Below are positions 2 to 20,317 of a stretch of DNA of 64,000 nt, piece by piece. Position 1 is the stretch's first letter, and every line of letters starts with the position of its first letter. The stretch lies in contig NZ_FNNN01000010.1 in the NCBI RefSeq assembly GCF_900106755.1, forward strand, positions 62,001 through 126,000. The letters are read 5' to 3'. The translations under genes were made by a program, and so were the position numbers. This DNA is from Bacteroides faecis MAJ27 (lineage in GTDB: Bacteria; Bacteroidota; Bacteroidia; Bacteroidales; Bacteroidaceae). Below the pieces are notes generated by a model, which was given only the letters and a program-made list of their open reading frames with translations, searched no databases and was not told the DNA's origin.

Positions 2-2989
2 CTGCCGGGAGTTACAGTTTTGATACTCGGAAAAGAGAGAAACATCGGAACCATGACAGATGCAGACGGTGCCTTTTCATTGGGACTCCCTGACGGAGAC
101 GCTACGATTCGTCTTTCTTTTGTGGGTATGCAATCTTTGGAAATACATACAGGTAAGTTGAATCTCGATAAAGTTCATACCTTTAAGTTGAAACCGGATT
201 CCAAGCAGCTGGAAGAGGTGGTGGTAACCGGATATGCGAAAATTAGCAAGAATAGCTTTACGGGTACTTCAGTGACGGTTACGGCAGATCAGTTGATGTC
301 GGTTTCCAAAACGAATGTATTGGGAGCTTTGCAAACGTTCGACCCCTCTTTTCGTATTGCAGAGAATAATTTAGCCGGGTCGAATCCGAATAATGTTCCA
401 GAGTTATATATTCGTGGACGTTCAGGCATCGGAACCACTCAGTTGGATGCTCAAAGTCTTTCTAAAACATCATTGAAGAATAATCCTAACCTTCCGACTT
501 TTATAATGGATGGTTTTGAGATCAGTGTGCAGAAATTGTATGATATGGACCCTAGCCGTATTGCAAGTATTACAATTTTGAAAGATGCTGCCGCTACTGC
601 TATGTATGGTTCTCGTGCAGCAAATGGTGTAGTTATTATTACAACAGTTACTCCGAAAGCTGGTAAGGTTAATATTGATTATAATTTTACTGGAACGTTG
701 GAATATCCTGATTTGACTGATTATAATATGATGAATGCGCGGGAAAAGCTTGAAACGGAGGTTGCAGCTGGTTTATTTAAGGCGGATTCAGAACAGGATT
801 TTAATGAACAAAGTCGTTTGGATGCACTTTATAACCAAAAACTGAACAATGTAGTTCGTGGTGTTGATACTTATTGGTTATCCAAACCCCTTCGTACAGT
901 ATTCAATCACAAACATAGTTTGTATCTAGATGGCGGTACGGAGGATTTGCGCTGGGGAGCAGACTTTTCTTATAATAGTGGAGAAGGCGTTATGAAAGGT
1001 TCTTATCGCGATCGTATGGCTGGTGGGCTGTCTTTATCTTATCGGCTTGGAGCTTTTCAGGTAAGAAACTATTTCTCATATACTTATACTAAATCTCAGG
1101 AGTCTCCTTATGGAAGCTTTTCCGACTATACTTCAAAATTGCCATATGATGAATATATGGATGAGAATGGAAGATATTTGGAGACAACTTATCCTTGGAC
1201 TGGAGGTTCAGGAGAAGTAAATCCTTTGTATGAAGCTACATTGAAGAATTATGATCGTAGTAAGTCTTGGGAATTGATTAATAATACAGAATTGTTGTGG
1301 AATATCGACAGTTACTGGTTATTAAAAGGACAATTTAGTGTTACGAAGTCAAATTCGGATGCACGTACTTTTCTTGATCCGCGTTCAAAGAAGAATGATG
1401 ATTTGTTAGGTTTAAATAATGTGGTTTCAGGACAATTGGATATTGTTACTTCCAATAGTCTAAGTTGGGATGCTACTGCTACTTTATCTTATAATAGAAA
1501 TATAAAGAAGCACAATCTGAATTTTTTGGTAGGTATTAATGCTACTTCAAGTACTGGTGATAGCTTTGGTATTACTTACAAAGGATTTCCTTCTGGCGAA
1601 TTGTCTTCTCCAGGCTATGGTAATAAAGTCTCTGGATTGCCTTCAAATTCGGATAGTAAAAGTCGTCTTTTTGGTGCATTAGGGACATTCAATTATTCAT
1701 TTGATAATATTTATTTGGCGGACGTTTCTGTACGCTTCGACGGAAACTCAGAGTTTGGTGCTGATCAACGTTTTGCACCTTTCTTTTCTGGTGGTCTTGG
1801 TTTGAACTTGCATAATTATAAGTTCATGAAACAGTTTGATTGGATGGACCGTCTAAAGATTCGTGGAACTTACGGTATTACTGGTAAGGTTGACTTCTCT
1901 CCCTATGAAGCGCAGACTATTTATAAAGTGGTAACAGATAACTGGTTTAAAACAGGTCTAGGAGCTTCATTGATGGCATTGGGAAATAATGGATTGGGTT
2001 GGGAAAAGACTCATAACATGGATTTAGGTCTAGATGTTGATATGTTTAAAGGACTACTCCAGATGAATTTTTCATATTATCGTAAGAAAACGGTGGACTT
2101 GGTTAATAGTGTTACATTACCTAGTTCTACAGGTTTTACTTCTTATAAAGATAATATCGGTGAGGTGATGAATAAGGGTGTTGAGATTCAATTGAGAAGT
2201 AATATATTGAATACTAAGGATTGGTTTGTTGCAGTTTTTGCGAATATGGCTCATAATGAGAATAAAATAACTAAGATCTCAGATAGTCTGAAAGAATACA
2301 ATAAGCGCGTACAAGAAAAGTATGCGAAATATGATTCAGGAAAAGGAGATTCAAAATATAGTGAGACTTACTTGCAGTATGTAGAAGGTGGTTCGCTGAC
2401 ATCTATTTTTGGTGTTAGATCATTAGGCATCAATCCTGCAGATGGTAAGGAAATTTATCTTCGTCCTGACGGTACAATAACATATGATTGGAATGCGGCT
2501 GACCAAGTTGTAGTTGGAAACGAAGAGCCAAAACTCCAGGGTACTTTTGGATTTAACCTTCGTTGGAAGCAATTTTCTCTTTATTCTACCTTTATGTATG
2601 AATTTGGTGGACAACGTTATAATTCTACATTGGTAAGTAAAGTTGAGAATGCACATATTCAAAGTAGTAATGTAGACCGTCGTGTATTAACAGGGCGCTG
2701 GCAAAAGCCTGGAGATTGTACTCCTTATGGACGTTTGCAGACTGATGGGGTAGTTGCAGTAACTCGTCCTACTAGTCGTTTTATTCAGGATTATAATGTA
2801 TTGACATTTAACTCTCTTACTTTAGGATATGATTTTAATGCTGAATGGTTGAAGAAAGCACATATCGGTCTGTTACGTGTAGAACTTTCAGGAAATGATT
2901 TATTCCGTGTTGCTACTGTACGTGCTGAACGTGGATTGGACTATCCGTATTCACGGTCTTTTGCAGCTTCGGTGAAAATGAGTTTTTAA
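2..2989 (+). CDS. SusC/RagA-type TonB-dependent outer-membrane transporter (5' end outside window)
   Basis: The reading frame is open from the first bases of the window (Leu-Pro-Gly-Val-Thr-Val...), so the signal peptide and the start of the protein are missing; the apparent TTG at base 20 is not a start. What remains begins inside a carboxypeptidase-D-regulatory-like domain (TDADGAFSL), followed by the TonB-box/plug junction (LEEVVVTGYAK), a plug with the typical ILKDAAATAMYGSRAANGVV segment, and a long beta-barrel ending in an aromatic residue (KMSF). About 990 residues are visible, the usual size of a SusC without an STN domain. By family it imports large nutrients across the outer membrane using TonB energy, with the SusD encoded 13 bases downstream as its lid. 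The accompanying metalloproteases suggest peptides as cargo, but this is inference. Base composition is visibly AT-rich. Confidence 0.95.
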   Translation: MPGVTVLILGKERNIGTMTDADGAFSLGLPDGDATIRLSFVGMQSLEIHTGKLNLDKVHTFKLKPDSKQLEEVVVTGYAKISKNSFTGTSVTVTADQLMSVSKTNVLGALQTFDPSFRIAENNLAGSNPNNVPELYIRGRSGIGTTQLDAQSLSKTSLKNNPNLPTFIMDGFEISVQKLYDMDPSRIASITILKDAAATAMYGSRAANGVVIITTVTPKAGKVNIDYNFTGTLEYPDLTDYNMMNAREKLETEVAAGLFKADSEQDFNEQSRLDALYNQKLNNVVRGVDTYWLSKPLRTVFNHKHSLYLDGGTEDLRWGADFSYNSGEGVMKGSYRDRMAGGLSLSYRLGAFQVRNYFSYTYTKSQESPYGSFSDYTSKLPYDEYMDENGRYLETTYPWTGGSGEVNPLYEATLKNYDRSKSWELINNTELLWNIDSYWLLKGQFSVTKSNSDARTFLDPRSKKNDDLLGLNNVVSGQLDIVTSNSLSWDATATLSYNRNIKKHNLNFLVGINATSSTGDSFGITYKGFPSGELSSPGYGNKVSGLPSNSDSKSRLFGALGTFNYSFDNIYLADVSVRFDGNSEFGADQRFAPFFSGGLGLNLHNYKFMKQFDWMDRLKIRGTYGITGKVDFSPYEAQTIYKVVTDNWFKTGLGASLMALGNNGLGWEKTHNMDLGLDVDMFKGLLQMNFSYYRKKTVDLVNSVTLPSSTGFTSYKDNIGEVMNKGVEIQLRSNILNTKDWFVAVFANMAHNENKITKISDSLKEYNKRVQEKYAKYDSGKGDSKYSETYLQYVEGGSLTSIFGVRSLGINPADGKEIYLRPDGTITYDWNAADQVVVGNEEPKLQGTFGFNLRWKQFSLYSTFMYEFGGQRYNSTLVSKVENAHIQSSNVDRRVLTGRWQKPGDCTPYGRLQTDGVVAVTRPTSRFIQDYNVLTFNSLTLGYDFNAEWLKKAHIGLLRVELSGNDLFRVATVRAERGLDYPYSRSFAASVKMSF

Positions 2990-3002
2990 CAGTTTAAAGT
3001 AG

Positions 3003-4469
3003 ATGAATAATATGAAGAAATTATATACGATATTACTGTTGGCTACAAGCCTGTTTACTACAAGTTGTAGTGATTGGCTGGATGTAGCACCGAGTAATCA
3101 GGTGAATGGGGATAAGCTTTTTGAAGTAGGAGATGGATATCGAAATGCTTTGAATGGAATATATTTGAATTTGGGGACTTCTTCCATGTATGGACGAGCA
3201 ATGTCATGGGGATTTATGGATGCTATTGCTCAATATTATCAAACAGATAATAATTTTATACCTAAAAATTCAGCTTATTATAAATCGGCTAAGTTTCAAT
3301 TTGATGATTCGGATGTGAAAACTTTTATTTCCAATATATGGTCTATTGGTTATAATAATATAGCTAATTGTAATAATTTGATTCTCAATGTTAGCAAAGC
3401 TAGTCCTTCTGTTTTCAAAGAGGGAGAATTTGAGAAAAATATGATTTGGGGAGAAGCATTGGCACTACGAGCTTTTATACATTTTGATTTACTTCGTTTA
3501 TTTGCTCCCGCCATATCGAAAGATGATGGAAAGTCTTATATTCCCTATGTAGAGGTATATCCTACCATTATTCCTCCATATGAGAGTAGTAGAGAGATTC
3601 TTTCTAAAATAATTAGAGATTTAAAAGCTGCGAAAGAGATGTTAGCTAAATGTGATATAACTGATGAACATAAAATTTGGATGAGCACAAGTTATCGTAT
3701 GTTGGCATCAAGCATGCTTTCTAACGATATAGCTTCTAGTGATGTATTCTTCGCTTATAGAGGATATCGTATGAATTATTATGCTATAGTAGCGACATTA
3801 GCACGTGTATATTATTGGGAAGGAGAATATGAACAGGCTTATAAAGAAGCAAAAGAGGTTGTAGAAGCGACTTATCCATATGGAAGCAAGCCTGAATCCT
3901 GTTTTAATTTTGTGGAATATTCAAGTTTAGGTACGAATCTCAAAGACTATAATAGCATTATTATGTGTTTTTTTAATAAAACATTACAAGAAGATTATAT
4001 ACCTTATATAACAAGAGGAAATCAAACACTGTTTATCCTTGACAGTGATAATATCTTTGCTGATAATAAAGAACAGGATCGTCGTTTCCTTCTACAGACA
4101 GGTTCTTATAATTCTAATGCATATTCCTTAAAATATGATATTAAGTTGGGACAGGATGGTTCAGATATGGTTCCAGGTATACGCTTGAGTGAGATGTATT
4201 ATATCATGGGTGAGTACTTTGCTCGTAAAGGTGAATATTCTCAAGCTGGCAAAATGCTGGATGAAGTACGTTATGCGAGAGGAATTCTGACTACTAATAT
4301 GGAGAACAGTATTGGGTCATTGGAAGGATTTCATACAGAGTTATTGAAGGATATGCGTAAGGAATTTGTAGGAGAAGGACAAATGTTTTTTCAATACAAA
4401 CGTATGGATAAGAAACCGGTAGATAATGCAATTTTTGTATTTGATAAACCGGATAATGAGGATATTTAA
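3003..4469 (+). CDS. RagB/SusD-type nutrient-binding outer-membrane lipoprotein
   Basis: A 488-residue protein with a lipoprotein signal peptide (LLATSLFTTSC, lipobox Cys near residue 22) followed by SDWLDVAPSNQ, a typical SusD mature N-terminus. The TPR-like helical body includes the motif around WGEALALRAFIHFDLLRLFA, and the C-terminus contains the usual ARKGEYSQAGKMLDEVR and LLKDMRKEFVGEGQ segments. It lies 13 bases behind the SusC gene and overlaps the next gene's earliest possible start by one base, so the genes are co-transcribed. The family sits on the cell surface over the SusC barrel and captures substrate. Two in-frame ATGs (3003 and 3012) could both start it; the second also leaves a normal signal peptide. 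The substrate cannot be read from the sequence. Confidence 0.95.
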   Translation: MNNMKKLYTILLLATSLFTTSCSDWLDVAPSNQVNGDKLFEVGDGYRNALNGIYLNLGTSSMYGRAMSWGFMDAIAQYYQTDNNFIPKNSAYYKSAKFQFDDSDVKTFISNIWSIGYNNIANCNNLILNVSKASPSVFKEGEFEKNMIWGEALALRAFIHFDLLRLFAPAISKDDGKSYIPYVEVYPTIIPPYESSREILSKIIRDLKAAKEMLAKCDITDEHKIWMSTSYRMLASSMLSNDIASSDVFFAYRGYRMNYYAIVATLARVYYWEGEYEQAYKEAKEVVEATYPYGSKPESCFNFVEYSSLGTNLKDYNSIIMCFFNKTLQEDYIPYITRGNQTLFILDSDNIFADNKEQDRRFLLQTGSYNSNAYSLKYDIKLGQDGSDMVPGIRLSEMYYIMGEYFARKGEYSQAGKMLDEVRYARGILTTNMENSIGSLEGFHTELLKDMRKEFVGEGQMFFQYKRMDKKPVDNAIFVFDKPDNEDI

Positions 4470-4495
4470 TGTGTGATAATCAACGAAAAAGAAAG

Positions 4496-5206
4496 ATGAA
4501 AAAAAATATTCTATTTGCTTTAATATCTCTTTGTTTTTGGGGATGTTCGGAAGATGAGATAAAACCCTATCATGGTGGACAATATCTTTATTTTAGCCAA
4601 TTGAAGGAATTTGGTGATGAGGATTTCGAAGTATCTTTCAATAACTATCCTACTAGTGATGCTATTATTGTGAAGATTGGTCTGGGGCTAGTCGGAAAAC
4701 CGTTTTCAACAGATACACCTTACGAAGTAAGTGTGGTTGCGGAAGATGAGAGTGAAGATAAGATAAAGAATGCTGATCAGAAAAATTATCATTTGCCTGA
4801 TAATCCAATGTTTAAAGCTGGATTATCTAATGATACATTGGAGGTTGTGTTGTTAAAAACGGAAGATTTGAAAGAGAATGTGAAGTTGTGTTTGAAAATT
4901 CTTCCAAATGAGTATTTCGAAGGATCAATACCGGAATACGAACAAATTAAAATTGTATTTAATAATATTATTAGTAAACCTTTATGGTGGACCAATGATG
5001 TCACGAAGTTGTATTTAGGTACATATTCTAGAAAGAAATATGAAGAGTTTGTAAAATGCACTAATATCTCAGATTTTGGAAAACTAAGTACTGCCGAAAA
5101 ACGGCAATATGCATTGACATTCAAGTATTACATTGCAGTAAACAATGTAATGGATAAAAATGATACAACTGGTGAGGAGTTTCCGATGACTGTACCTATT
5201 AACTAA
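4496..5206 (+). CDS. DUF4843-type surface lipoprotein
   Basis: About 236 residues. I place the start at the second ATG (4496), because it gives a clean lipoprotein signal (MKKNILFALISLCFWGCSEDE). The earlier ATG at 4469 overlaps the SusD stop by one base and would add nine charged residues before the signal. The mature part (YHGGQYLYFSQ..., a beta-rich region with LEVVLLKTEDLKENVKLCLKILPNEYF) resembles the DUF4843 lipoproteins that often follow SusD in Bacteroides loci without sugar-cleaving enzymes. Its place in the operon is that of SusE/SusF-like accessory binding proteins at the cell surface. No catalytic motif is visible. The family name rests on recall of sequence style and gene order, and the function is inferred. 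Confidence 0.75.
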   Translation: MKKNILFALISLCFWGCSEDEIKPYHGGQYLYFSQLKEFGDEDFEVSFNNYPTSDAIIVKIGLGLVGKPFSTDTPYEVSVVAEDESEDKIKNADQKNYHLPDNPMFKAGLSNDTLEVVLLKTEDLKENVKLCLKILPNEYFEGSIPEYEQIKIVFNNIISKPLWWTNDVTKLYLGTYSRKKYEEFVKCTNISDFGKLSTAEKRQYALTFKYYIAVNNVMDKNDTTGEEFPMTVPIN

Positions 5207-5225
5207 TTAGAATAGAAATTGAAAT

Positions 5226-6857
5226 ATGAAAATGAAGATATTATTTGTTGTAATGTTCCTTTTGATCATCACGTCTTGTTATGAGGATAAGGGAAATTAT
5301 GATTATAGAGAAATGAACGATATCGAGATTTCTGTAGAGACTGAAAGTTCTTCGTATGCGTTAGGAGATAAAGTGATATCAAAACCAAAATTAGTTTTCA
5401 CTTTAGGAAAAGAACCTTCTGATTTATCATATGAATGGACGTTTGATGGACATGTCATAGCTGATACTAGAGACCTGGAGTGGATAGCGGATACAATTGC
5501 TAGTACTAAAGAACTTCGGTTGGCTGTGATGGATAATAACACAGGAGTTACCTATTTTGGTTCTACGTACATTTCTGTTTCTTCTGCTTATGCCTCTAAC
5601 GGCTGGGTAGTACTCTCCGAGAAAGAAGGTATCAGTACTTTAGCTTTTTTGAGAGAACAGACTGAAGAGGGAATATTAAAACCTGTTGTTACACGTGATA
5701 TTTATCAAATGATTAATGGTGTACCGATGGGAACACAGCCTGTTTCTATGTATCCTCACTGGACAGAACGCTGGGATGGAGAAGATAAAACCAGTTGGCT
5801 ATGGGTAGCACAGAAGGGTGGCCAAGGAGCTATTGATATATCAGGTAGCAGTTATAAGCAGGAAGGGATATTGTCTCAAATGTTCCTTAGTAAATCATAT
5901 CCAGAAGGATTTGTTCCGGTAGGTGTTATTGATATGCAGTTTCTTACAATGGCAATTGGTGAAGATGGAATTATTTATACCCGCGTTAAAGATAGCAATT
6001 TATTGTTTAACTCTAGTAATTTCCTTGACCGACCATTAACATCAGATGAAGAAGGTAAAATAAAGGTGGATGGTAGCATGATTGCTTATGCTCCTTTTGA
6101 TGAACATGGAGGTATGGTTCTTTATGATAAAAATTCTTCGCAATATTTGCATATTGCTGATTATAAGAGTTGGCAAGGTTATAACTATTCTGGCAAGGTG
6201 CTACCTTTGAAGGTGGAGGAGTATGAGTATGGTCCTTCTGATGCTAGGCTAGATAACATGAAGGATTATTCTGTATACTTTGTAGGTGCTAGTTTGGTTG
6301 ACTGGGGAGATGTCTCTTATATGTCTATTATTAAAGATAAGGCTGGCAAGTTCTATATACAGAAATTTACGGTAGAAGCTTATGGAGGGGGTAGTTCTGT
6401 CACCAAAGTTGGCGCTAGTTTTACATCTCAAAGTGAGATTGAGGGGCTAAGTTCAGTAATTGACGGAACGTCCAAAAACTGTTTTTATCTTTGTCGGAAT
6501 CAGGATAAAGCTCCTTATCTGTTTATAAGTAAAGGGGAGACTCTCTATTTTTATTATACAGATGGGAATAAGTTATACACATGTGCTCAATTTGATTCTC
6601 CTATTGCTTCTATTGATGCCGAATGCTTTAATAATAAATATATTATAGTAGGTTTGGAAAATGGAGATGTCTATATTCTGAAAGGGGATGATGATAATTC
6701 GGATTATACTCTTAAGAAATATGTAATCCAACAGAATAAGGTAATTCAGGTGAATGATGCTGAAAATAAATTTGTATTGTTCCATGAAAAAGATTTTGGG
6801 CGGATTATTCAGGTTCGTTATAAATGGAAAGAATCTTGGAATGAATCATTTAGTTAA
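5226..6857 (+). CDS. PKD-like family surface lipoprotein
   Basis: A 543-residue lipoprotein (MKMKILFVVMFLLIITSCYEDKGNYDY). After the lipidated Cys comes a PKD-like beta-sandwich (about residues 30-115: SYEWTFDGHVI, a typical PKD strand) and then a long beta-rich region with repeated short strands (GWVVLSEKEG, YIIVGLENGDVYIL) that may form a propeller. Proteins with this layout commonly follow SusC-SusD-DUF4843 in Bacteroides and are thought to be surface glycan- or peptide-binding components. No enzyme motif is visible. It is 19 bases behind the DUF4843 gene and 20 bases ahead of the metalloprotease, so it belongs to the same operon. Codon use is AT-rich like the upstream genes and clearly unlike the protease genes that follow. 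Confidence 0.75.
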   Translation: MKMKILFVVMFLLIITSCYEDKGNYDYREMNDIEISVETESSSYALGDKVISKPKLVFTLGKEPSDLSYEWTFDGHVIADTRDLEWIADTIASTKELRLAVMDNNTGVTYFGSTYISVSSAYASNGWVVLSEKEGISTLAFLREQTEEGILKPVVTRDIYQMINGVPMGTQPVSMYPHWTERWDGEDKTSWLWVAQKGGQGAIDISGSSYKQEGILSQMFLSKSYPEGFVPVGVIDMQFLTMAIGEDGIIYTRVKDSNLLFNSSNFLDRPLTSDEEGKIKVDGSMIAYAPFDEHGGMVLYDKNSSQYLHIADYKSWQGYNYSGKVLPLKVEEYEYGPSDARLDNMKDYSVYFVGASLVDWGDVSYMSIIKDKAGKFYIQKFTVEAYGGGSSVTKVGASFTSQSEIEGLSSVIDGTSKNCFYLCRNQDKAPYLFISKGETLYFYYTDGNKLYTCAQFDSPIASIDAECFNNKYIIVGLENGDVYILKGDDDNSDYTLKKYVIQQNKVIQVNDAENKFVLFHEKDFGRIIQVRYKWKESWNESFS

Positions 6858-6877
6858 AACTTAAAAACGATAAAACT

Positions 6878-9505
6878 TTGAAAAAACTGTATTTACTTCT
6901 TCTAGTCGTACTATGCGGGGCTATGACTAACCCCGCTGTGGCTAAGAAGAAAAACAAGAAGAAAGCTTCTACCGAAGCGACTACGAAGAAAGAGAAGAAG
7001 GAAACCAAGTATGACAAACTGTTTAAAGACAAGAAGGTCACCACAGCTAAAGGTTTCATCACTCTTCATAAGTTGGACAATAAGATCTATTTTGAGTTAC
7101 CGATTAAGGTGATGAATCGGGATATCCTGCTCGGTTCTACTATTGCTGAAACTACCGATAACCAGTTCGGTTGTGTAGGAGAGAAGTCCGGTGATCCGTT
7201 CCTGATCCGTTTCGTACAGCGTGATTCTACTATTACGTTGCGCCGCGTGCAGGCAGGACAGTTTTCTGAGGACCGTGAGATCAAGAAACGGTTGACAAGC
7301 AGTACAATGCCGGCTATCGCCGAAACATTCGAAATTAAGGCTTATAACAATGATAGCACAGCAGTCGTATTCGATATGACAGACTACTTGTTGAGCGACC
7401 AGAAACTTCTTTCTCCTTTCTCTCCTTATTCAATGATGGAGATGATGGGAGCGGATATCGATAAAGATTTCGAGAAAGAAAGTTCCTTTATCCAAGGAAT
7501 CAAAGGATTTGAAGATAATATCAGCGTACGTTCTTTGCTGACCTATAAAATCAGTGTAGGGGTGAAAGGAAACTACGCCGTGAAGAAAATGCCGTTTACA
7601 GCAGTCATGAACCGTAGTTTCATTCTGTTGCCCGAGCAGCCGATGCGTCCTCGCTATGCTGATCCACGTATCGGTATTTTCGAGCATTCGGTAGTGGAGT
7701 TTGCTTCCGAAGGACGTGGATTACGCACTCGTCACATTGCTCACAGATGGAATCTGGAGCCATCTGACTCTGCTGCTTATCTTCGTGGTGAACTGGTGGA
7801 GCCCAAGAAGCCCATCGTTTTCTATATTGATGATGCGTTCCCTTTGAACTGGAACAAATATATCCACAAAGGAGTTGAAGTATGGCAGAAAGCATTCGAA
7901 AAGATTGGTTTCAAGAATGCTATTGTAGCTAAAGACTTCCCGAAAGACGACCCGAATTTTGATCCCGAGAATATTAAGTATTCTTGTATCCGTTACGCAC
8001 CGTCTACGGTAGCCAATGCGATGGGACCATCCTGGATTGATCCGCGTTCCGGAGAGATTATCAATGCATCTGTGACTGTATTCCACAACATCGTGCAACT
8101 CGTTCAGTACTGGCGCTTCTTGCAGACTGCCCCTGCTGATAAAGATGTTCGCGATATCGTATTGCGTGAGGACTTGTTGGGCGATTGCATCGCTTACGTA
8201 CTTTCTCATGAAGTAGGTCATACATTGTCATTGATGCACAATATGGCCGGTTCTTCCTCTATTCCTGTAGAGTCATTGCGTGATCCGAAGTTTACTCAGG
8301 AGTTCGGAACTACTTATTCTATCATGGACTATGCACGTAATAACTATGTAGCGCAACCGGGTGATAAAGAGAAAGGCGTACGTCTGACTCCGCCGGAATT
8401 GGGAGCTTATGATTACTATGCTATTGCCTGGCTGTACACCCCGATATTTGAGGCTAAAACAGCTGAAGAAGAAATTCCTATACTGGACAAATGGATCAGC
8501 GAAAAGTCAGGAGATGATAAATATCGTTATGGTAAACAACAATTCAAACGCCGCTTTGACCCGAGTTCTGTAGAAGAGGATTTGGGAGACGATCCGGTGA
8601 AAGCTTCTGAATACGGACGCCGTAACCTGCAATATCTGCTGAAACATATCAACGACTGGGTAGCAGATAAGGATAAGGATTTTGAGTTCCGTAGTGCGGT
8701 TTATGACGAAGTGGTGTATGCTTATGTACGTTATCTGAGTTTCGTATTGGGAGATATCGGTGGTATCTATTTGAATGAACGCTATGACGGTGACCAGCGT
8801 CCGAGCTATAAAACGGTATCTAAGCAACAGCAGAAGAAGGCACTGAACTTCCTGTTGAACGAGTTGAAAGACCTTTCCTGGCTGGATGCCCGCGAGACAT
8901 TGAAAGAGTTCCCGATTCGTACTTCTGTTGCTATGCAGATGGAAGATGCTATTATAGATGGTATTCTGTCCCGTTGTGGTGCAGTAGCTATTTGTTCGGA
9001 CAAAGCTACATCGTCTCCTTACACTCAGAAAGAATATCTGGCTGATATCGAACGTTTCGTATGGGCTCCTACACGTGCCGGCAGAAATCTGACTGAAACG
9101 GAAATGCGCTTGCAGATGAATTACCTGACTAAATTGATTGAAGGTTCGGTAGCCGGAGTTACCAAGAATGCCAGCCGCAGAGGAATTGCAGATATGTATG
9201 CTTACATTGAAGTTCCCGAATGGTTGAAATCGGCTTCCCGCGAACGTTTCGGTATTATTTCGGAAGAGTTTATGGGATGTTTCAATAACAAACCTCGTGA
9301 AATGCAGGCTGCCCGTCTCGAAGAGATCAGCGGTTTTGATGATGATGTGGATTTGAAAGCACCGATTGAACCGATGGAACACGTTTACTACGGTGAGTTG
9401 AAGAAAGTTCGTAGCCTGGTTGCGGCCAATGCTTCTACTGGCTCTGCTGATACCCAGCGCCACTACCGCTTATTGTTGTACAAGATTGATCAGGCATTAA
9501 AATGA
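6878..9505 (+). CDS. Zinc-dependent metalloprotease (DUF5117/DUF5118 type), active-site motif intact
   Basis: An 875-residue secreted protein. The start is TTG at 6878: the next Met lies inside the signal peptide, while TTG gives a complete one (MKKLYLLLLVVLCGAMTNPAVA) cut before a Lys-rich run. The zinc motif HEVGHTLSLMH places ligands at His444, His448 and His454 with Glu445 as catalytic base, the metzincin-like HExxHxxxxxH pattern, followed by a candidate Met-turn (YSIMDYARNN). The DUF5118-like N-terminal part (about 40-85) and DUF5117-like part (about 85-280) precede the catalytic region. The product probably acts in the periplasm or outside the cell. It is 20 bases behind the PKD-like gene and overlaps the next protease gene by four bases (ATGA). 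It is visibly richer in G+C than the SusCD genes upstream. Its protein substrate is unknown. Confidence 0.9.
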   Translation: MKKLYLLLLVVLCGAMTNPAVAKKKNKKKASTEATTKKEKKETKYDKLFKDKKVTTAKGFITLHKLDNKIYFELPIKVMNRDILLGSTIAETTDNQFGCVGEKSGDPFLIRFVQRDSTITLRRVQAGQFSEDREIKKRLTSSTMPAIAETFEIKAYNNDSTAVVFDMTDYLLSDQKLLSPFSPYSMMEMMGADIDKDFEKESSFIQGIKGFEDNISVRSLLTYKISVGVKGNYAVKKMPFTAVMNRSFILLPEQPMRPRYADPRIGIFEHSVVEFASEGRGLRTRHIAHRWNLEPSDSAAYLRGELVEPKKPIVFYIDDAFPLNWNKYIHKGVEVWQKAFEKIGFKNAIVAKDFPKDDPNFDPENIKYSCIRYAPSTVANAMGPSWIDPRSGEIINASVTVFHNIVQLVQYWRFLQTAPADKDVRDIVLREDLLGDCIAYVLSHEVGHTLSLMHNMAGSSSIPVESLRDPKFTQEFGTTYSIMDYARNNYVAQPGDKEKGVRLTPPELGAYDYYAIAWLYTPIFEAKTAEEEIPILDKWISEKSGDDKYRYGKQQFKRRFDPSSVEEDLGDDPVKASEYGRRNLQYLLKHINDWVADKDKDFEFRSAVYDEVVYAYVRYLSFVLGDIGGIYLNERYDGDQRPSYKTVSKQQQKKALNFLLNELKDLSWLDARETLKEFPIRTSVAMQMEDAIIDGILSRCGAVAICSDKATSSPYTQKEYLADIERFVWAPTRAGRNLTETEMRLQMNYLTKLIEGSVAGVTKNASRRGIADMYAYIEVPEWLKSASRERFGIISEEFMGCFNNKPREMQAARLEEISGFDDDVDLKAPIEPMEHVYYGELKKVRSLVAANASTGSADTQRHYRLLLYKIDQALK

Positions 9506-12120
9506 TAGGAAGTATGAGAAATAGATATAGTAAGATACTTTGTTTATTACTTCTTTTTGCCTGTTGCCTGCCACAGGAAGGAAATGCTTTCTGGCCTTTT
9601 AAAAAGAAGAAAAAAGAAGATAAGAAGGAAAACCTGACACCTTACCAGAAGTTGTTCAAGAACAAAAAGGTGCAGACAGCACATGGCCTGATGACCATTC
9701 ACAAAGTGGAAGGAAAGATATATGTGGAATTTCCGATCGATATGTTAGGACGCGAAATGCTGTTTACTTCTTCTATCGAGAATACAAGCGACGGCGGTGA
9801 GGGTGCTCCGGGACAGCTGGGCGGTACGGATGTACGTTTCCGCTTTGAGATGATCGACTCTACACTGGTGGCACGTATGCCCTTGCTGAGCAAACCGGTG
9901 AATACGAGCGGTGACAGTTATATCGCCCGTGCACTGGACAATTCGCACAATCCGGGTATTTTCAAAAGCTTTAAAGTACTGGCTTGTACACCGGACAGTT
10001 CTGCGCTTGTAGTGGATATGAAGGGACTGTTTATGGAAGGATCTGCATTTACCAAGCCTTTCCCTTCTACTTCTGCCAACGGTTATTACGGATTCGTTTC
10101 ACGTGATCACTCCCTGCAGTCTGATAAGTCGGCTATCCTTGGAGTATCGGCTACAGAGAATAATATAGCTGTACGTGAAGAACTGTCTTACAAGGTTGAC
10201 CACACACTGATGGGCGCTTACAGCATGTATAAGGATGTGCCTCTGACAGCTGTGGTCAATAAAATGTTGTGCATCTTGCCGGAGGAACCGATGGCTCCCC
10301 GTCTGGCTGATTCGCGCTTGGGAATGACAACGCAGCTGAAAAGTGACTTTGCGGGAGCTACTCAGGAAGTGAAAAGCATACGTTATGCAAAGCGCTGGCG
10401 TATCGAACCGTCTGACTCTGCTGCTCATCGTCGTGGAGAATTGGTTCAACCTAAAAAGCAGCTGGTCTTTTATATCGACAGCCTGATGCCTGCAAAATGG
10501 AATCCATATATCAAAGCCGGTGCAGAATCATGGAATAAGGCGTTTGAGAAGATAGGATTTAAAGATGTTATCTGTGTGAAGGAGTTTCCGAAGAACGATA
10601 CATTGTTCAATGCAAACAGTCTTGATTGTATGACCGTACGTTATTCTGCTTCCTGGATGAATTCCGCGCAGACTACGATACACTCTGATTCACGTACAGG
10701 TGAGATTCTGAATGCTTCTATCCTGATCAATGCAAACATGATCAGTGTGCAGTATGCTGACCGTGTCGGAGCAACTGTAGCTATCGACCCTCGTGTACGT
10801 ACTACTGTTTTCCCGGAAGATATACAAGGTGAGTTGATCGAGGCTGCTATCGCTCAGGCGGTAGGTACCGGTCTGGGATTGACTATGAACTGGGGGGCTT
10901 CCTGTGCTTATCCGGTAGATTCGTTGCGTTCGGTAGGCTTTACACAGAAGTACGGACTGGCTTCTTCCGTTATGGGAGGAGTAGTGATCAATGATGTGGC
11001 TACGGAAGACGATGTACGCAAAGGAGTATGCCTGGTTAATACCAAGCCCGGTCCTTACGACGAACTGGTGATTAAATATTTATATCAGCCTATTTATGCT
11101 TCTTCATTGCAGGAAGAGAAAGATACGCTGGACAGCTGGATTCGTGAACATACAGGAGATCCGCATTATGCCTATATCCGCAATCAGTCCCGTTTCGATT
11201 CCGATCCCCGTAACAGCCGTGGAAGTTTGGGAGATGATCATTTGAAATCATTCGACTATATGCTTCCCAATGTCCGCAAAGGATTTGAGAACTATTATAA
11301 CTGGTTTGCCAAGGATGACCGTGATTTCTTAATGCGCAGACGTGTACACTCTGCCCTAAGTGAAAGGCTGAGCGGACGTATTTACGCTGTTCTGAGTTAT
11401 ATTGGGGGTATTTACCTGAATGATATTCGTGAGAAGGATGCGATACCGAGCTACTCAATGGTAGATCGGGAGAAGCAGAAAGCAGCATTGGATAAGGCAC
11501 TGGAACTGGCGAAGAATTTGGAGTGGGTGGATGATGATGCTCATGCCAAGGAATTCGAGATTGCAGATGAGAAGGCAGATCGTCTTCGTCTGGATATCTT
11601 CAATGGAATTTTCGGACGTCTGCCTTATGTCGAAGTTTGTACGGAACGTTTCCCCGATGCGGCTTACACGGCTTCGGAATATCTGGATGATATTTACGGA
11701 GTTGTCTGGGAAGGCGTATTGAAACACCGTCCGTTGAAAGACTTTGAAAGAGCTTTGCAGACTGCATTCCTGGAAAGTATCATTTCGACATCGACAGCCA
11801 CTTCGCCTGTCGGTAGTTTCAAAGCTTCTAAAACTGCATTTGCAGCTTCCGGCAAGCCGGAGATTAATCTGGCTGCTCTGAGAAACGGAGAAAGAGTGGA
11901 TATGAAGATGCAACTCCTGCAGAATCCGGAAGAGATAGCAGGTTTTTCTTCAGTACCGCCGATCTACACTAATCAGACGAAAATTGCTGCGTATTATTTC
12001 GACTTGTTGATGAAGACGAAAGATATGCTCGAAAAAGCTGTATCAGCAGCTCCCGAAGCAGATCGTTCTCATTACGACTTGTTGATCTACCGCATCAAGA
12101 AGGCTATAGAAATTGAATAA
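9502..12120 (+). CDS. Metalloprotease paralogue (DUF5117 type) lacking zinc ligands, probable pseudoenzyme
   Basis: An 872-residue paralogue of the preceding gene, translationally coupled to it through an ATGA overlap; an alternative ATG at 9514 gives a tighter signal peptide. After the signal comes a Lys-rich run (FKKKKKEDKK), then the same domain order. The position of the zinc motif is clear from the flanks (GELIEAAIAQ... and YPVDSLRSVGFTQKYG), but it reads QAVGTGLGLTM. All three His ligands (His to Gln452, Thr456 and Met462) and the catalytic Glu (to Ala453) are replaced. The Met-turn region is also changed (SSVMGGVVIN). The frame is otherwise full length with no frameshift, so the gene looks maintained rather than decaying. 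A binding, chaperone or regulatory role beside the active paralogue is my inference. Confidence 0.85.
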   Translation: MIGSMRNRYSKILCLLLLFACCLPQEGNAFWPFKKKKKEDKKENLTPYQKLFKNKKVQTAHGLMTIHKVEGKIYVEFPIDMLGREMLFTSSIENTSDGGEGAPGQLGGTDVRFRFEMIDSTLVARMPLLSKPVNTSGDSYIARALDNSHNPGIFKSFKVLACTPDSSALVVDMKGLFMEGSAFTKPFPSTSANGYYGFVSRDHSLQSDKSAILGVSATENNIAVREELSYKVDHTLMGAYSMYKDVPLTAVVNKMLCILPEEPMAPRLADSRLGMTTQLKSDFAGATQEVKSIRYAKRWRIEPSDSAAHRRGELVQPKKQLVFYIDSLMPAKWNPYIKAGAESWNKAFEKIGFKDVICVKEFPKNDTLFNANSLDCMTVRYSASWMNSAQTTIHSDSRTGEILNASILINANMISVQYADRVGATVAIDPRVRTTVFPEDIQGELIEAAIAQAVGTGLGLTMNWGASCAYPVDSLRSVGFTQKYGLASSVMGGVVINDVATEDDVRKGVCLVNTKPGPYDELVIKYLYQPIYASSLQEEKDTLDSWIREHTGDPHYAYIRNQSRFDSDPRNSRGSLGDDHLKSFDYMLPNVRKGFENYYNWFAKDDRDFLMRRRVHSALSERLSGRIYAVLSYIGGIYLNDIREKDAIPSYSMVDREKQKAALDKALELAKNLEWVDDDAHAKEFEIADEKADRLRLDIFNGIFGRLPYVEVCTERFPDAAYTASEYLDDIYGVVWEGVLKHRPLKDFERALQTAFLESIISTSTATSPVGSFKASKTAFAASGKPEINLAALRNGERVDMKMQLLQNPEEIAGFSSVPPIYTNQTKIAAYYFDLLMKTKDMLEKAVSAAPEADRSHYDLLIYRIKKAIEIE

Positions 12121-12260: not shown

Positions 12261-12358
12261 TCTTTTATAGGCGGATATCTTTTGGAAAGTACCATACAAC
12301 TAGATTGTCCGAGAGAAAAATATCAGTCTTTCTGTATAGAACATTATTATTTAATTTG

Positions 12359-12366
12359 TATTTTTG
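12359..12366 (+). promoter_or_regulatory. Bacteroidetes -7 promoter box for the sigma-factor gene
   Basis: TATTTTTG fits the Bacteroidetes TAnnTTTG -7 consensus. Transcription would start around 12371-12374, only about ten bases before ATG 12383, which argues against the upstream in-frame start at 12305. No convincing -33 TTTG box is seen, so confidence is moderate. Confidence 0.45.
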
Positions 12367-12382
12367 GCGCAAAACTCCCGAA

Positions 12383-12952
12383 ATGACTAACAATGAGATT
12401 TCCATAGAACAAATTAATAAGTTGGATGCGGCTGCTTTCCGACTGCTTTATAAGAATTATTATAAAGCATTGGTTTGCTATGCAATAACAATTGTCGGAG
12501 ATTCAGAATCTGCAGAAGATATTGTCCAGGAGTTATTCTCCACTATTTGGGAGAAGAAGATGCTTTTCCGGTCTCTGGCTTCATTTAGGGCTTATCTGTA
12601 TAATTCTGTCAGAAATGCTTCCCTGGATTATTTGAAACATAAGGATGTGGAAGGTAGCTATCTTCAGAAGATGCTTGATAGCCACTCCACTACATTTAGG
12701 ATGGAAGAAGAGGAAGAAGGGTTCTTTAGTGAAGAAGTCTATCGCCAGTTACTTCAGACAATTGATGCTTTGCCAGATCGATGCCGGGAAGTTTTTTTGA
12801 TGTATATGGAAGGTAAGAAGAACGAGGAGATTGCTACTGCACTCCATGTTTCTCTTGAAACTGTGAAGACTCAAAAGAAGAGAGCAATGTCCTTCCTTAG
12901 AAAAAAATTAGGCTCCTATCATTTTCTATTATTGCAAATGTTACTTCCCTAA
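12383..12952 (+). CDS. ECF RNA polymerase sigma-70 factor (Bacteroidetes type)
   Basis: A 189-residue protein from ATG 12383. An upstream in-frame start (12305) would add 26 residues with no homology and lies before the putative -7 box. Region 2 is seen at AAAFRLLYKNYYKALVCYA and the segment ESAEDIVQELFSTIWEK; region 4 at LPDRCREVFLMYMEGKKNEEIA with the helix-turn-helix HVSLETVKTQKKRAMSFLRKK. This is the cytoplasmic half of the sigma/anti-sigma system that in Bacteroides switches on a neighbouring SusC with an STN domain when that transporter binds its ligand. The FecR gene follows after 198 bases and the STN-SusC after that, which matches the classical order exactly. The gene's targets are most likely the genes from 14369 to 22867. 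Confidence 0.93.
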   Translation: MTNNEISIEQINKLDAAAFRLLYKNYYKALVCYAITIVGDSESAEDIVQELFSTIWEKKMLFRSLASFRAYLYNSVRNASLDYLKHKDVEGSYLQKMLDSHSTTFRMEEEEEGFFSEEVYRQLLQTIDALPDRCREVFLMYMEGKKNEEIATALHVSLETVKTQKKRAMSFLRKKLGSYHFLLLQMLLP

Positions 12953-13150
12953 AAAGAAGCATAACACTCAATCCACTTTACTTGTTAACACCTGTTTGCA
13001 ATGAACAAAATGTTCGTTGTTTTTCTTGATTATTGTACAAAAAGAACGGTCTTCTAAATAAATAAAGTATCTTTTGAATAAAAAAACTTCAGAATCCTGT
13101 CCCCCATTTCTTCTTCTTAGTCGTCTTTACTATAAATAACCTGAAATAAT

Positions 13151-14335
13151 ATGATAAAGCGTAAAAGAAGTATAAATTCTATCATCCATGATCAGTTGCT
13201 GGGATACGCTTCGGAAGAAGATAAAAAACAGTTGCAGTCATGGCTTGATAGTTCTCAAGAAAATAGAGAGAACTATGATCGTCTGATGCGTGAGGCTTGT
13301 TTGATTGACAGGTATAAACAGTTTGCCCAGGTAGATGAAGAACGTGCTTGGGAAAGGTTTCAGAAAAAGCATTTCTCTATTCGCTCTGCTCGTTGGGTCA
13401 AAATAGGACGCTATGCTGCAATCTTCTTATTGCCGATAATCGGTTTTGCAATATGGTTTTGGACTTTGCGGCTGATGGATTCTCAGCCGGTGATTTCGGA
13501 TGAAGTTCGTATTGCTATGATCCGGTCGGAGAAGATGGGTAAACAAAAGGCAACACTGGTTCTGGCAAATGGACAGAAGATGGATTTAAAATCAGTGCCT
13601 GCTAAGCCATTACAGGATTCGGTGGAACAAGTTCCTGTTGCTCAGCCGTCAGTTCCTAAGACTGATATGAATGAATCGGAAGAGGTCTCTGTTGTAGAAA
13701 ATAATAAGTTGAGTACTTATGATGACAGTGAATTCTGGATGACGTTTGAAGACGGGACCAGGGTGCATCTGAATTATAATACGACATTGAAATATCCACC
13801 ACATTTCGGTACTACCACTCGCACGGTCTATTTGGATGGGGAGGCTTATTTTCAGGTAGCCAAGGATAGCAAACGCCCTTTCCGTGTCATTACGGCGAAT
13901 GGAGTGGTCAAGCAGTACGGGACAACTTTCAATGTAAATACACATGTGCCCGGAATAACGAAAGTAGTGCTGGTGAAAGGTTCTGTAAGTGTGCTTCCTA
14001 ATCAGGGAGGGGAATATAAAATAAAACCGGGGGAATTGGCGGTTCTTCAGGCTGATACGCAAGATGTACAAATTAGCGTAGTGGATATCGAGCCGTATAT
14101 CGCATGGAACAGTGGACGCTTCGTTTTTGATAACTGTTCTTTGGAGAGTCTGATGAATGTAATATCACGTTGGTACAACAAAGATATCGTATTCGAATCG
14201 GAAGATACCAAGAAGATACGTTTTACAGGAGATATTGATCGCTACGGCTCAATAGAGCCCATATTGAAAGCGATACAGCGGGTGACTCATCTGGAAATGG
14301 AAATACAGGGGAAGACCATAATTATAAAGAAATAA
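13151..14335 (+). CDS. FecR-family anti-sigma factor
   Basis: A 394-residue inner-membrane protein. The cytoplasmic N-terminal part (about 1-85) would bind the sigma factor. One transmembrane helix lies near residues 86-108 (YAAIFLLPIIGFAIWFW). A linker rich in Pro, Val and Ser is followed by the FecR domain (about 190-290: TFEDGTRVHLNYNTTL, VYLDGEAYFQVAKD) and a C-terminal DUF4974-like domain (about 315-394: FVFDNCSLESLMNVISRWY). The periplasmic part is expected to contact the STN domain of the SusC encoded 33 bases downstream. The upstream gap (12953-13150) holds a weak GAACA/TGTTC hairpin followed by T-rich sequence near 13003, possibly an attenuating terminator after the sigma gene. Confidence 0.93.
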   Translation: MIKRKRSINSIIHDQLLGYASEEDKKQLQSWLDSSQENRENYDRLMREACLIDRYKQFAQVDEERAWERFQKKHFSIRSARWVKIGRYAAIFLLPIIGFAIWFWTLRLMDSQPVISDEVRIAMIRSEKMGKQKATLVLANGQKMDLKSVPAKPLQDSVEQVPVAQPSVPKTDMNESEEVSVVENNKLSTYDDSEFWMTFEDGTRVHLNYNTTLKYPPHFGTTTRTVYLDGEAYFQVAKDSKRPFRVITANGVVKQYGTTFNVNTHVPGITKVVLVKGSVSVLPNQGGEYKIKPGELAVLQADTQDVQISVVDIEPYIAWNSGRFVFDNCSLESLMNVISRWYNKDIVFESEDTKKIRFTGDIDRYGSIEPILKAIQRVTHLEMEIQGKTIIIKK

Positions 14336-14355
14336 ACATATTAACTACTATTAAA

Positions 14356-14363
14356 AAAGGAGG
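14356..14363 (+). promoter_or_regulatory. Unusually strong Shine-Dalgarno sequence before the STN-SusC gene
   Basis: AAAGGAGG lies five bases before ATG 14369. It is complementary to the canonical 16S 3' end. Bacteroidetes messages generally show weak or no Shine-Dalgarno signal, and I see nothing comparable before the other SusC genes in this window. Confidence 0.6.
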
Positions 14364-14368
14364 ACGAC

Positions 14369-17300
14369 ATGCAAAAAAAGAGAGCTCGAGAACGCATTAT
14401 CATGTTTCTCTGTATTATTTCCTTGTTGTTTACACCGGTGTTGGCTGCATCGCAATCTAATGCAATGAGGGTATCCTTAGATCTTAAATCTGCAACAGTT
14501 AAAGAATTTTTTGATGCTGTAAAAGTACAGACTGGCCTGAACTTTATTTATAGTACGGAGCAAGTGAAGAATATGCCTCGTATCACTATTCAGAGCAATA
14601 GTCAGCCTATCAGTGAGGTGTTGAACAAAGTGCTGGCAAATACCGGATACAGTTATGAAATAGAAGGAAATATTGTAACCATTGTATATCAGCAACCTAA
14701 AGAGAATGTCCGCACGGCTACGGGCGTTGTGGTTGATGAGGGAGGGTTGCCCTTGCCGGGAGCTTATATAAAACTCTCTAAAACGGAACATTCGACGATA
14801 ACTGATAATGAAGGTAAGTTTTCTATTAATTTATTCCGTCAGAAAGAGCCTGTCCTGATTGTCTCGTATTTGGGAATGATTGTACAGGAAGTAAAAGTTG
14901 CCGGTACTAAACCTATGACAATCGTGATGAAATCGGATGTGAAGTCAATCGATGAAGTTGTAGTGACAGGTTATCAGGAGATTGACAGACGCAAGTTGGC
15001 AAGCTCCATATCCTCTATAAAGGGAGCTGATCTGATTGGTGGGGAGTATCTGTCTATCGACAAAATGTTGCAGGGACGCCTGCCGGGTGTTGCTGTGATG
15101 AATATGTCATCTACTCCGGGAGCTGCTCCTAAGATTAGAATTAGGGGATCTTCCTCTATTACAGGAAATAGAGAACCGGTATGGGTAGTCGATGGGATTA
15201 TTCTGGAAGAACCTGTCAATATCTCTACAGAAGAGTTGAATAGTCCGGATAAGATAAACTTGATCGGAAATGCCATCGGTTCGGTCAATCCGGAAGATAT
15301 TGAACGTGTGGATATTCTGAAAGATGCCAGCGCTACTGCTATCTATGGCATCAAAGCGGCCAATGGAGTTATTGTGGTCACTACCAAGCAAGGAAAAAAA
15401 CAGAAACCGAGTATCACGTATACCGCTACATTGGGGATAACAGCTCCTCCTACTTACGATAAAATGTTTCGGATGAATTCTGCCGACAGAATTGATATGT
15501 CTATCGAAATGCAGGAGAGGGGATTATCTTTCGGAAGTTACAAACCTTCGGATATTGGCTATGAAGGAGCATTGCAACATCTGTGGAATAAAGATATTAC
15601 CTATCAGGAATTCTTAAACCAAGTAAAGATATTGAAAGGACTGAATACCGATTGGTATGACTTGCTGTTCCGTACAGCATTTACACATCAGCATTCGGTA
15701 TCCATTACAGGTGGAAATGAGCGGAGCAATTATTATATGTCCATAGGATATGCGAATAATAACAGTGTGACTACCAAGGAAGGACTGGAGCGCTATAACG
15801 TACTGGCTAAAATAAATACTAGAATCAACCGGAATATACATTTGGGACTGAAGGTAAGCGGCTCTCTTTCTAAAGCAGAACATCCTCATACTTCCATTGA
15901 TGTGTATGAATATGCTTATAATACTTCACGAGCTATTCCTTTGCGGACGGCTTCTGATGAGTTGTATTTTTATGCGAATGAGGCAGGACACAATGGGATT
16001 CTGCCTTATAATATTATGAATGAACTGAACCATACAGGTAACAAAAATGATAATTCTTCGATAGATGTAGCTATAAACTTAGATTGGAATGTGGCTTCAT
16101 GGATAAAATTCTCATCGATATTGGGAGCATCTAGAAGTAACGTAACGCAGGAGAACTGGGCGGATGAACAATCATATTATATTTCATCTATGCGGCAAAG
16201 CCCTTATGGAAAGAAACTACCGGATCTAACGGAAGATCCCAAATTTGTAGAAGAATACTGTCTACTTCCATTTGGAGGAGAATTAGCGACGACCAATACC
16301 CGTAACACTTCTTATACCTGGAGAAATAGTCTGGCTTTGATGCAAAGTTTTGGAAAACATGAAATCTCAGGAAGTATTGGACAGGAAGTCAGATCTTCCA
16401 AATATGATGGATTAAAATCCACACAATATGGATATTTGCCGGAAAGAGGTAAAAAGTTTGTAGATATTGATCCGACGATATGGAAAAGGTATGCCGCTTT
16501 GGTTAAGAATCATCCGGATGTAGTGACCGATACAAAGAATAATGTGATTTCGTTGTACGCTACTGCTTCTTATGTGTATGATAGCCGATATATTCTGAAC
16601 TTTAATATACGAACTGATGGTTCCAATAAATTCGGTCAGAGCAAGAGCGTGCGTTTTCTGCCGATATGGTCTGTATCTACCCGATGGAATGTTATCAATG
16701 AGAAATTTATGAAAAACGTCAGTTTCCTGAATGATTTGGCAATCCGTGCTTCATACGGTATACAAGGTAACGTACATCCGGACCAGACTCCTAATCTGAT
16801 TGCCAGTCTGGGAACGCTGGAATCGTTGCCACAGGAATATGTGTCAACTCTTTATAAATTGCCGAATAATAAGCTGAAATGGGAAAAGACCAACTCTTAC
16901 AATATTGCAATTGACTGGGCATTTTGGAATAACAGAGTTTATGGCTCTCTCGATGTGTATTACAAAAAGGGCGTTGATCAGGTTGTTACGAAAAACGTAG
17001 CTCCTTCTACGGGAGCATCGAGTGTTTCTATTAATGATGGAGATGTTGAAAATAGAGGCTGGGATTTGGCTGTATCTTTTGTTCCTGTCCAGACTCGGAA
17101 CTGGATGTGGAGTATATCATTTAATACAGGTAAGAACTATAATAAAGTATTGAATGCTGGAAACTCGGCTGTTACCTGGCAAGATTATATTGCAGGAACA
17201 TTGGTGAGTAATGGTAATGCGATTAACAGTTTCTATTCTTACAAGTTTGATAAACTGGATGCACAGGGATATCCTACCTTTAAGGATGTTAACGAGAAGG

Positions 17301-17917: not shown

Positions 17918-17919
17918 TA

Positions 17920-19392: not shown

Positions 19393-19398
19393 TCGATT

Positions 19399-20298: not shown

Positions 20299-20317
20299 AA
20301 CTTAAAAACAACATGAT

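Follow-up and report, generated by a model that had tools for sequence, protein, structure and literature searches.

The window, as we call the whole 64,000-nucleotide stretch of Bacteroides faecis MAJ27 analysed here (contig NZ_FNNN01000010.1, positions 62,001 to 126,000), opens with a single run of plus-strand genes (20-12120) that ends in two tandem Met-zincin paralogues, referred to below as A and B. The run starts with a SusC-type TonB-dependent transporter (20-2989, taking the earliest start codon that the window contains, although the gene may start further upstream) and continues with a SusD-type protein (3003-4469), a DUF4843 protein (4469-5206) and a PKD_2 (PKD-like) protein (5226-6857). 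Gene A (6878-9505) encodes 875 amino acids (aa) with DUF5118, DUF5117 and DUF4953 domains, and its intact zinc-binding motif, HEVGHTLSLMH (aa 444-454, with HEVGH at aa 444-448; 8207-8239), followed by the Met-turn SIMDY (aa 481-485; 8318-8332), suggests that A is active. The frame of B (9502-12120) is intact over 872 codons and shares four bases with A in the stop/start overlap ATGA (9502-9505), just as an earlier sequence-only reading of this DNA had described, and translation of the two genes is probably coupled. By Pfam, B comprises DUF5118 (aa 46-95; 9637-9786), DUF5117 (aa 104-304; 9811-10413) and the DUF4953 Met-zincin region (aa 435-739; 10804-11718), but in place of the zinc motif it has QAVGTGLGLTM (aa 452-462; 10855-10887) and in place of the Met-turn SVMGG (aa 489-493; 10966-10980). 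Sec-type signal sequences were read by eye at the N-termini of both proteins, which are therefore probably both periplasmic. Because a pair of Cys residues lies close to the end of the signal of B, this protein may take a lipoprotein form.

A and B are 35% identical over 841 aligned columns. The sequence-only reading had held that the three His ligands and the catalytic Glu are all replaced in B, and the alignment agrees: QAVGTGLGLTM falls under HEVGHTLSLMH, in the same register as in an alignment of 174 relatives. Its statement that the Met-turn is altered stands in part. The Asp-Tyr that follows the methionine in A is lost, but the methionine itself is kept (M491 of B aligns to M483 of A). 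Both proteins match DUF5118, DUF5117 and the DUF4953/Met-zincin family in Pfam, and B passes the complete Met-zincin architecture PF17162-PF17148-PF16313, in order, with 56.4, 145.2 and 232.5 bits against cut-offs of 27, 27 and 24.2 (334.8 bits for A in DUF4953). Neither HExxH nor HxxEH occurs anywhere in B, so that no alternative HExxH-like site was found there, and the HxxEH of the M16 family is absent from both A and B. Fourteen His and ten Cys residues remain in B. The NCBIfam model of an inactivated metalloprotease, NF041938, does not claim B as a member (13.3 bits against a curated cut-off of 375). Sequencing error was ruled out as the cause of the substitutions, which three other genomes share (QAVGTGLGLAA, QAVGTGLGLAP and QAVGTGLGLTV). 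Going by its Pfam domain, B would be taken for a zinc protease; lacking the functional metzincin motif HExxHxxGxxH with its catalytic Glu, it is very unlikely to be one judging by its residues.

We used AlphaFold2 (AF2) models to compare the two proteins with known structures. The models of B (pLDDT 86.2, pTM 0.86, 88 sequences) and A (pLDDT 88.2, pTM 0.88, 74 sequences) are of high confidence, and both align in VIA-align, with modest scores, to the catalytic domain of karilysin (2xs4): residues 273-530 of B with Z 9.1 (3.1 Å over 146 residues, 13% identity) and residues 265-524 of A with Z 9.7 (3.4 Å over 149 residues, 16% identity). Matrix metalloproteases (MMPs) come next after karilysin, in agreement with the Met-zincin hidden Markov model. 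The C-terminal half returned helical proteins at similar Z, which we take as uninformative. Searching with the model of B in Foldseek yielded no hit at E <= 0.001, and sequence searches for solved relatives gave none convincing for B and none for A.

B is maintained in related genomes. Close orthologues are present in three of the 157 other genomes of the genus (82, 83 and 73% identity), all directly behind an orthologue of A with the same four-base overlap and with SusC, SusD, DUF4843 and PKD_2 homologues upstream in the same order. Across the four B sequences the first nine motif residues are identical, and variation is confined to the position of the third ligand and the residue next to it (TM, AA, AP, TV). 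A one-ratio GY codon model of the four genomes gave ratios of nonsynonymous to synonymous substitution (dN/dS, omega) of 0.065 for B and 0.033 for A, indicating purifying selection on B. In other sets of pairs, omega for inactive versus active members was 0.070 versus 0.039, 0.094 versus 0.059 and 0.024 versus 0.020, the last being saturated. B therefore shows neither the broken frame nor the relaxed selection of a pseudogene, and its orthologues together with omega rule out decay specific to this strain. An intact HExxH is found at the same locus in none of the three close orthologues, nor in the one distant pair, from Sanguibacteroides (L005; loci other than the window's are given as L numbers), in which A is 57% and B 44% identical to the window proteins, 75 bases lie between the genes and B is inactive (QIVGKCLGLTE); the SusC/SusD genes there lie downstream of the pair on the other strand. 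Intact second genes were encountered only much further away (L018 and L007). Frame-broken or short members were seen in three Prevotellaceae drafts, affecting the HExxH copy at L048 and the inactive copy at L058 and L059.

We examined how often such inactive copies occur, and in what setting, in a sample made up of 79 named loci (the best 80 of 491 related stretches were kept) and further genome loci, with at most four candidates scored per genome. After removal of open reading frames (ORFs) shorter than 700 aa (220 to 193) and of duplicates (193 to 174), 137 of the 174 distinct members carried the full motif, two had HExxH but Asn in place of the third His, and 35 lacked HExxH. Each of the 37 inactive or partial copies has a further family ORF on its own strand, no more than 500 bases away, and 32 of the 35 inactive ones lie directly beside an HExxH-bearing copy. 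Among the intact copies 78 of 137 stand alone; no inactive copy does. Since twenty regions had been fetched mostly for being tandem, the named loci and a census provide fairer counts. At the named loci alone, all 12 inactive and two partial copies are tandem, and the 55 stand-alone copies include no inactive one. The census covered the listed matches from 201 genomes sampled in the window's family, of which 95 had any; its totals leave out fragments below 650 aa, and the member on contig C34 of the window's own genome is not in it. Full-length ORFs comprised 97 intact stand-alone, 18 intact tandem and 15 inactive tandem copies, three tandem copies without a readable motif and no inactive stand-alone copy (Fisher P = 6e-11, with kinship ignored). 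Remote subfamilies in the census follow the same pattern (L194, L214, L235 and L238). In this sample, then, inactive copies occur only in tandem. Genomes of Butyricimonas hold many such Met-zincins, with up to three in tandem (L006, L008, L012, L014, L015 and further loci of Butyricimonas sp. Marseille-P3923).

The zinc site is not all that inactive copies lose. Using as reference the 74 columns conserved at 97% or more in 108 of the 137 intact members (the other 29, of remote subfamilies, were left out), we found that the 35 inactive copies have lost 80% of the four catalytic positions and 84% of a set of 15 residues (F268, P363, C370, N380, G383, Y440, T478, T479, I482, Y485, R487, P505, P506, Q554 and E567 in A numbering), compared with 13% of the other 55 conserved columns. 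One set of residues is thus lost selectively and the rest kept. The 15 residues were picked with the inactive rows in view, such that only the rows from L012, L015, L029 and L263 serve as semi-independent tests. B of the window has lost all four catalytic positions and all 15 residues of the set, and 104 of the 108 intact rows have lost none of the 15. We refer to the set as the putative cleft, from the closeness of much of it in sequence to the motif and the Met-turn. Among the four B orthologues, six of these 15 co-lost residues vary, compared with 281 of 833 positions in the whole protein and eight of the 55 other conserved sites.

Intermediate states were also observed. The third gene of a Butyricimonas triplet (L012:11599-14214) retains the four catalytic residues and has lost nine of the 15; its relatives L015:8887-11493 and L029:8986-11598 have lost 12 of the 15 together with the third His (to Asn); and L131:4155-6767 and L140:4777-7389 have lost 12 of the 15 and three of the four catalytic positions. 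The third genes of triplets appear to form a graded series, with erosion reaching the surroundings before the zinc site.

The zinc site has been lost repeatedly. With the motif columns removed, a FastTree phylogeny of the 174 rows requires seven state changes, six of them forced by starred branches, and a more careful mixture-model tree of 61 chosen rows requires eight, with six forced; these changes are losses if the zinc site is never regained. Approximately unbiased (AU) tests rejected a single loss shared by the 17 inactive rows in the 61-row tree (p 0.00017), as well as one loss common to the inactive first gene of Fodinibius and ten second genes of Bacteroidales (p 0.0008). A clade uniting those ten with the active L007 and L018 second genes could not be rejected (p 0.379). 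The groups tested were named after the tree had been seen, both trees carry a long-branch warning, and branching near the base of the group, where the window pair falls, is weakly supported. Inactive copies are found among Bacteroidales second genes (including B), Prevotellaceae first genes, L047, the second and third genes of the triplet in L131 and L140 (of the window's genus) and Fodinibius. Their zinc-site substitutions vary by clade (QA..T, KA..L, RH..H, RN..H, RE..F and CE..R). The middle gene of one Butyricimonas triplet (L008:8974-11490) is inactive as well (QKMGNCLGLMN), with intact homologues in L006 and L009, and its loss is apparently recent.

Which member of a pair is inactive differs between lineages. 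Fodinibius salsisoli (L007) has lost the motif in its first gene (RQVGFRLGFKP) and kept it in its second (HEVGHTLGLMH). In genome G1057 (L263), which has the same genus code as L007 (g294), it is the first that is intact (HEIGHTLGFMH) and the second that is inactive (RQVGQTLGLTR), the start of the latter ORF being uncertain. The two pairs are 45% identical between first genes and 49% between second genes, with cross pairs at 37-40%, and the first genes are sisters in the tree (99/97), as are the second genes (98/94). By these identities and placements the pairs are therefore clearly orthologous. A Pseudoflavitalea pair with both genes intact (L018) adjoins them in both clades, and the parsimonious reading would be an ancestral pair with two sites, one or the other of which was lost by lineage. 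The G1057 run also includes FecR, SusC and SusD homologues, a DUF4843 protein (66.6 bits) and a PKD_2 match of 36.4 bits, just below the cut-off of 39.2. Pairs of this type are rare. A second-gene match above 41% identity was found in G920 alone of 395 genomes of the phylum (G920 is the same Fodinibius contig as L007 and is counted once), and first-gene matches well above the rest in G920 and G1057 alone among 116 genomes of the order.

That B is, as suggested, a pseudoprotease maintained alongside an active partner gains support from orthologues whose loci have the same structure, from its low omega and from the family neighbour that every inactive copy in the sample has. As to its function, we consider it rather probable that B is the non-catalytic subunit of a heteromeric metalloprotease of which A is the catalytic subunit. 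Under this proposal, A and B would be co-translated from an import operon of SusC/SusD type, exported by their Sec signal sequences and associated, probably in the periplasm, through contacts of their common DUF5118-DUF5117-Met-zincin scaffold. Imported peptides or proteins would probably be the substrates, cleaved at the zinc site of A, with B giving structure, stability or cleft geometry. Catalysis would then be a property of the complex. After duplication one site would suffice, and therefore the second could erode, with the eroding member differing by lineage. A heteromer with one sufficient site fits the restriction of inactive copies to tandems, the conservation of the scaffold and, most of all, the reciprocal loss. 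B also has features expected of a pseudo-subunit as far as its sequence tells, namely a homologous partner beside it (35% identity, four-base overlap) and purifying selection. Three roles had been offered for it, substrate binder, inhibitor and assembly partner, and the last appears to fit best, because residues around the old site that a binder would be expected to keep are lost and because the inactive role can fall on either member.

Several points weigh against a heteromer. The A-B complex is something that we infer, as are its periplasmic place and peptide substrate, and the models are of single chains. Most intact members in the census stand alone, so the active protein needs no partner in general, and adjacency follows from tandem duplication alone and is not assembly. 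The Fisher value overstates the association, given that the pattern was counted after being seen and that the species are related. At L131 and L140 the direct neighbour of the third gene is itself inactive, with the intact copy lying one gene further on. The reciprocal case consists of two genomes plus one with both sites intact, and, at 45-49% identity within one genus, the L007 and L263 loci may have been acquired separately. Finally, the HExxH neighbour at L048 is broken into 407 and 473 aa, with HExxH in the second fragment, and the inactive copy is broken or short at L058 and L059; in these draft genomes either decay or sequence error might be responsible.

Alternatively, B might regulate A without being a stable subunit, as a substrate presenter, as a chaperone of folding or export or as an inhibitor guarding against periplasmic proteolysis. 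Close coupling and tandem-only occurrence would suit any role that depends on A, and pseudoenzymes sometimes regulate active cousins or scaffold complexes, according to the review PMC11266112. However, reciprocal loss in orthologous pairs suits symmetric subunits better, and the 97 stand-alone intact copies have no such family neighbour. Moreover, the co-lost residues of B are replaced, and they vary among its orthologues at about the whole-protein rate and more than other conserved sites do, which argues against binding in the old cleft. We therefore regard a regulatory role as rather unlikely. That B has acquired a function of its own, such as another chemistry or the binding of a ligand or glycan, and is tied to A by the operon only, is quite improbable. 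The roughly twofold higher omega of B and its long branch would be in keeping with a new function, but every inactive copy in the sample has a family neighbour, and zinc-site substitutions that differ by clade point away from selection for a single new active site. Decay of B toward loss has in its favour the complete loss of catalytic residues and the broken or short inactive copies of the two Prevotellaceae drafts, but is strongly disfavoured, to the point of being very improbable, by the intact frame and low omega in four genomes of the genus, by retention down to 73% identity (44% with Sanguibacteroides) and by the keeping of most other conserved residues. Zinc binding or catalysis by B through some unusual site is hardly credible, for although many His and Cys residues are left and the pseudoenzyme call is made from sequence alone, HExxH and HxxEH are absent and B has lost the Met-turn Tyr as well as all four catalytic positions.

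The SusC/SusD-linked Met-zincins might more generally be obligate heteromers in which either paralogue can carry the one sufficient site, so that pseudo-subunits arise repeatedly and reciprocally, even within one genus. Erosion could start around the site before reaching the ligands, and a motif search might mistake for active proteases some HExxH copies, such as the third gene of L012, that have already become pseudo-subunits. We offer this extension tentatively, as a possibility for which the balance tips slightly to the negative.

Pairs of active and inactive metallopeptidases are already known among the M16 peptidases. In the mitochondrial processing peptidase (MPP, M16B), the active beta subunit is accompanied by an inactive alpha subunit, which is essential and contributes to the clamshell active centre; two-gene operons of prokaryotic M16B peptidases have a matching arrangement, and the M16 motif is HxxEH (PMC11266112). 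As far as that account goes, the likeness to A and B lies in homologous subunits of which one lacks the zinc motif and, in prokaryotes, in the two-gene operon. In contrast, A and B belong by their Pfam matches to the Met-zincins, are linked to SusC/SusD, come from a family with many losses that can affect either member, and form a complex that is putative. The M16 fold also differs from that of Met-zincins. FtsH is an ATP-dependent membrane protease of plastids, of a family unrelated to Met-zincins, and its FtsHi pseudo-subunits belong to heteromeric complexes. Like B, these have a degenerate HExxH, which is TEVGV in FtsHi1 of the chloroplast FtsH (M41), as given in Table 2 of PMC11266112. The NCBIfam family NF041938, 'MYXO-CTERM-anchored inactivated metalloprotease' (RSIGE_not_HEIGH), is likewise a metalloprotease family with a degenerate zinc motif, but B is far below its cut-off and no tandem partner is mentioned for it. 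Karilysin and the MMPs are metzincins to whose catalytic domain the AF2 models of A and B align, but A and B have large extra N- and C-terminal regions, and B lacks the zinc ligands. Searches of the open-licence literature in PubMed Central (PMC) found nothing on DUF5117, DUF5118, DUF4953 or this Met-zincin pair. Within the reach of those searches, a Met-zincin version that is linked to SusC/SusD, has changed state at least six times on the tree and has lost opposite members of orthologous pairs has not been described.

Should A and B together make up one enzyme, work on family members purified singly would overlook the functional unit. The orthologous pairs with opposite members dead and the graded triplets provide a natural series for asking what leads enzyme complexes to tolerate or favour inactive subunits, a question usually approached through single frozen examples.

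The A-B run is followed in the window by a sigma-70-type (extracytoplasmic function, ECF) factor, a FecR-type protein and a second SusC-SusD run (12305-22867). This run ends in C (20318-22867, plus strand), a third, stand-alone family member with intact HEIGHTLGLMH; a fourth member, also with an intact motif, is on contig C34 of the same genome. The protein directly before C (19399-20298) has a lipoprotein-like start, and no Pfam family matches it above threshold. HExxH is absent from the six sequences aligned. Remote homologues occupy the same place in L024, L045 and L036, where they match Peptidase_Mx1 with 23.6-26.1 bits (the cut-off of 25.6 being passed by L024 alone), and the protein is perhaps a second kind of pseudo-metallopeptidase adjoining a Met-zincin.

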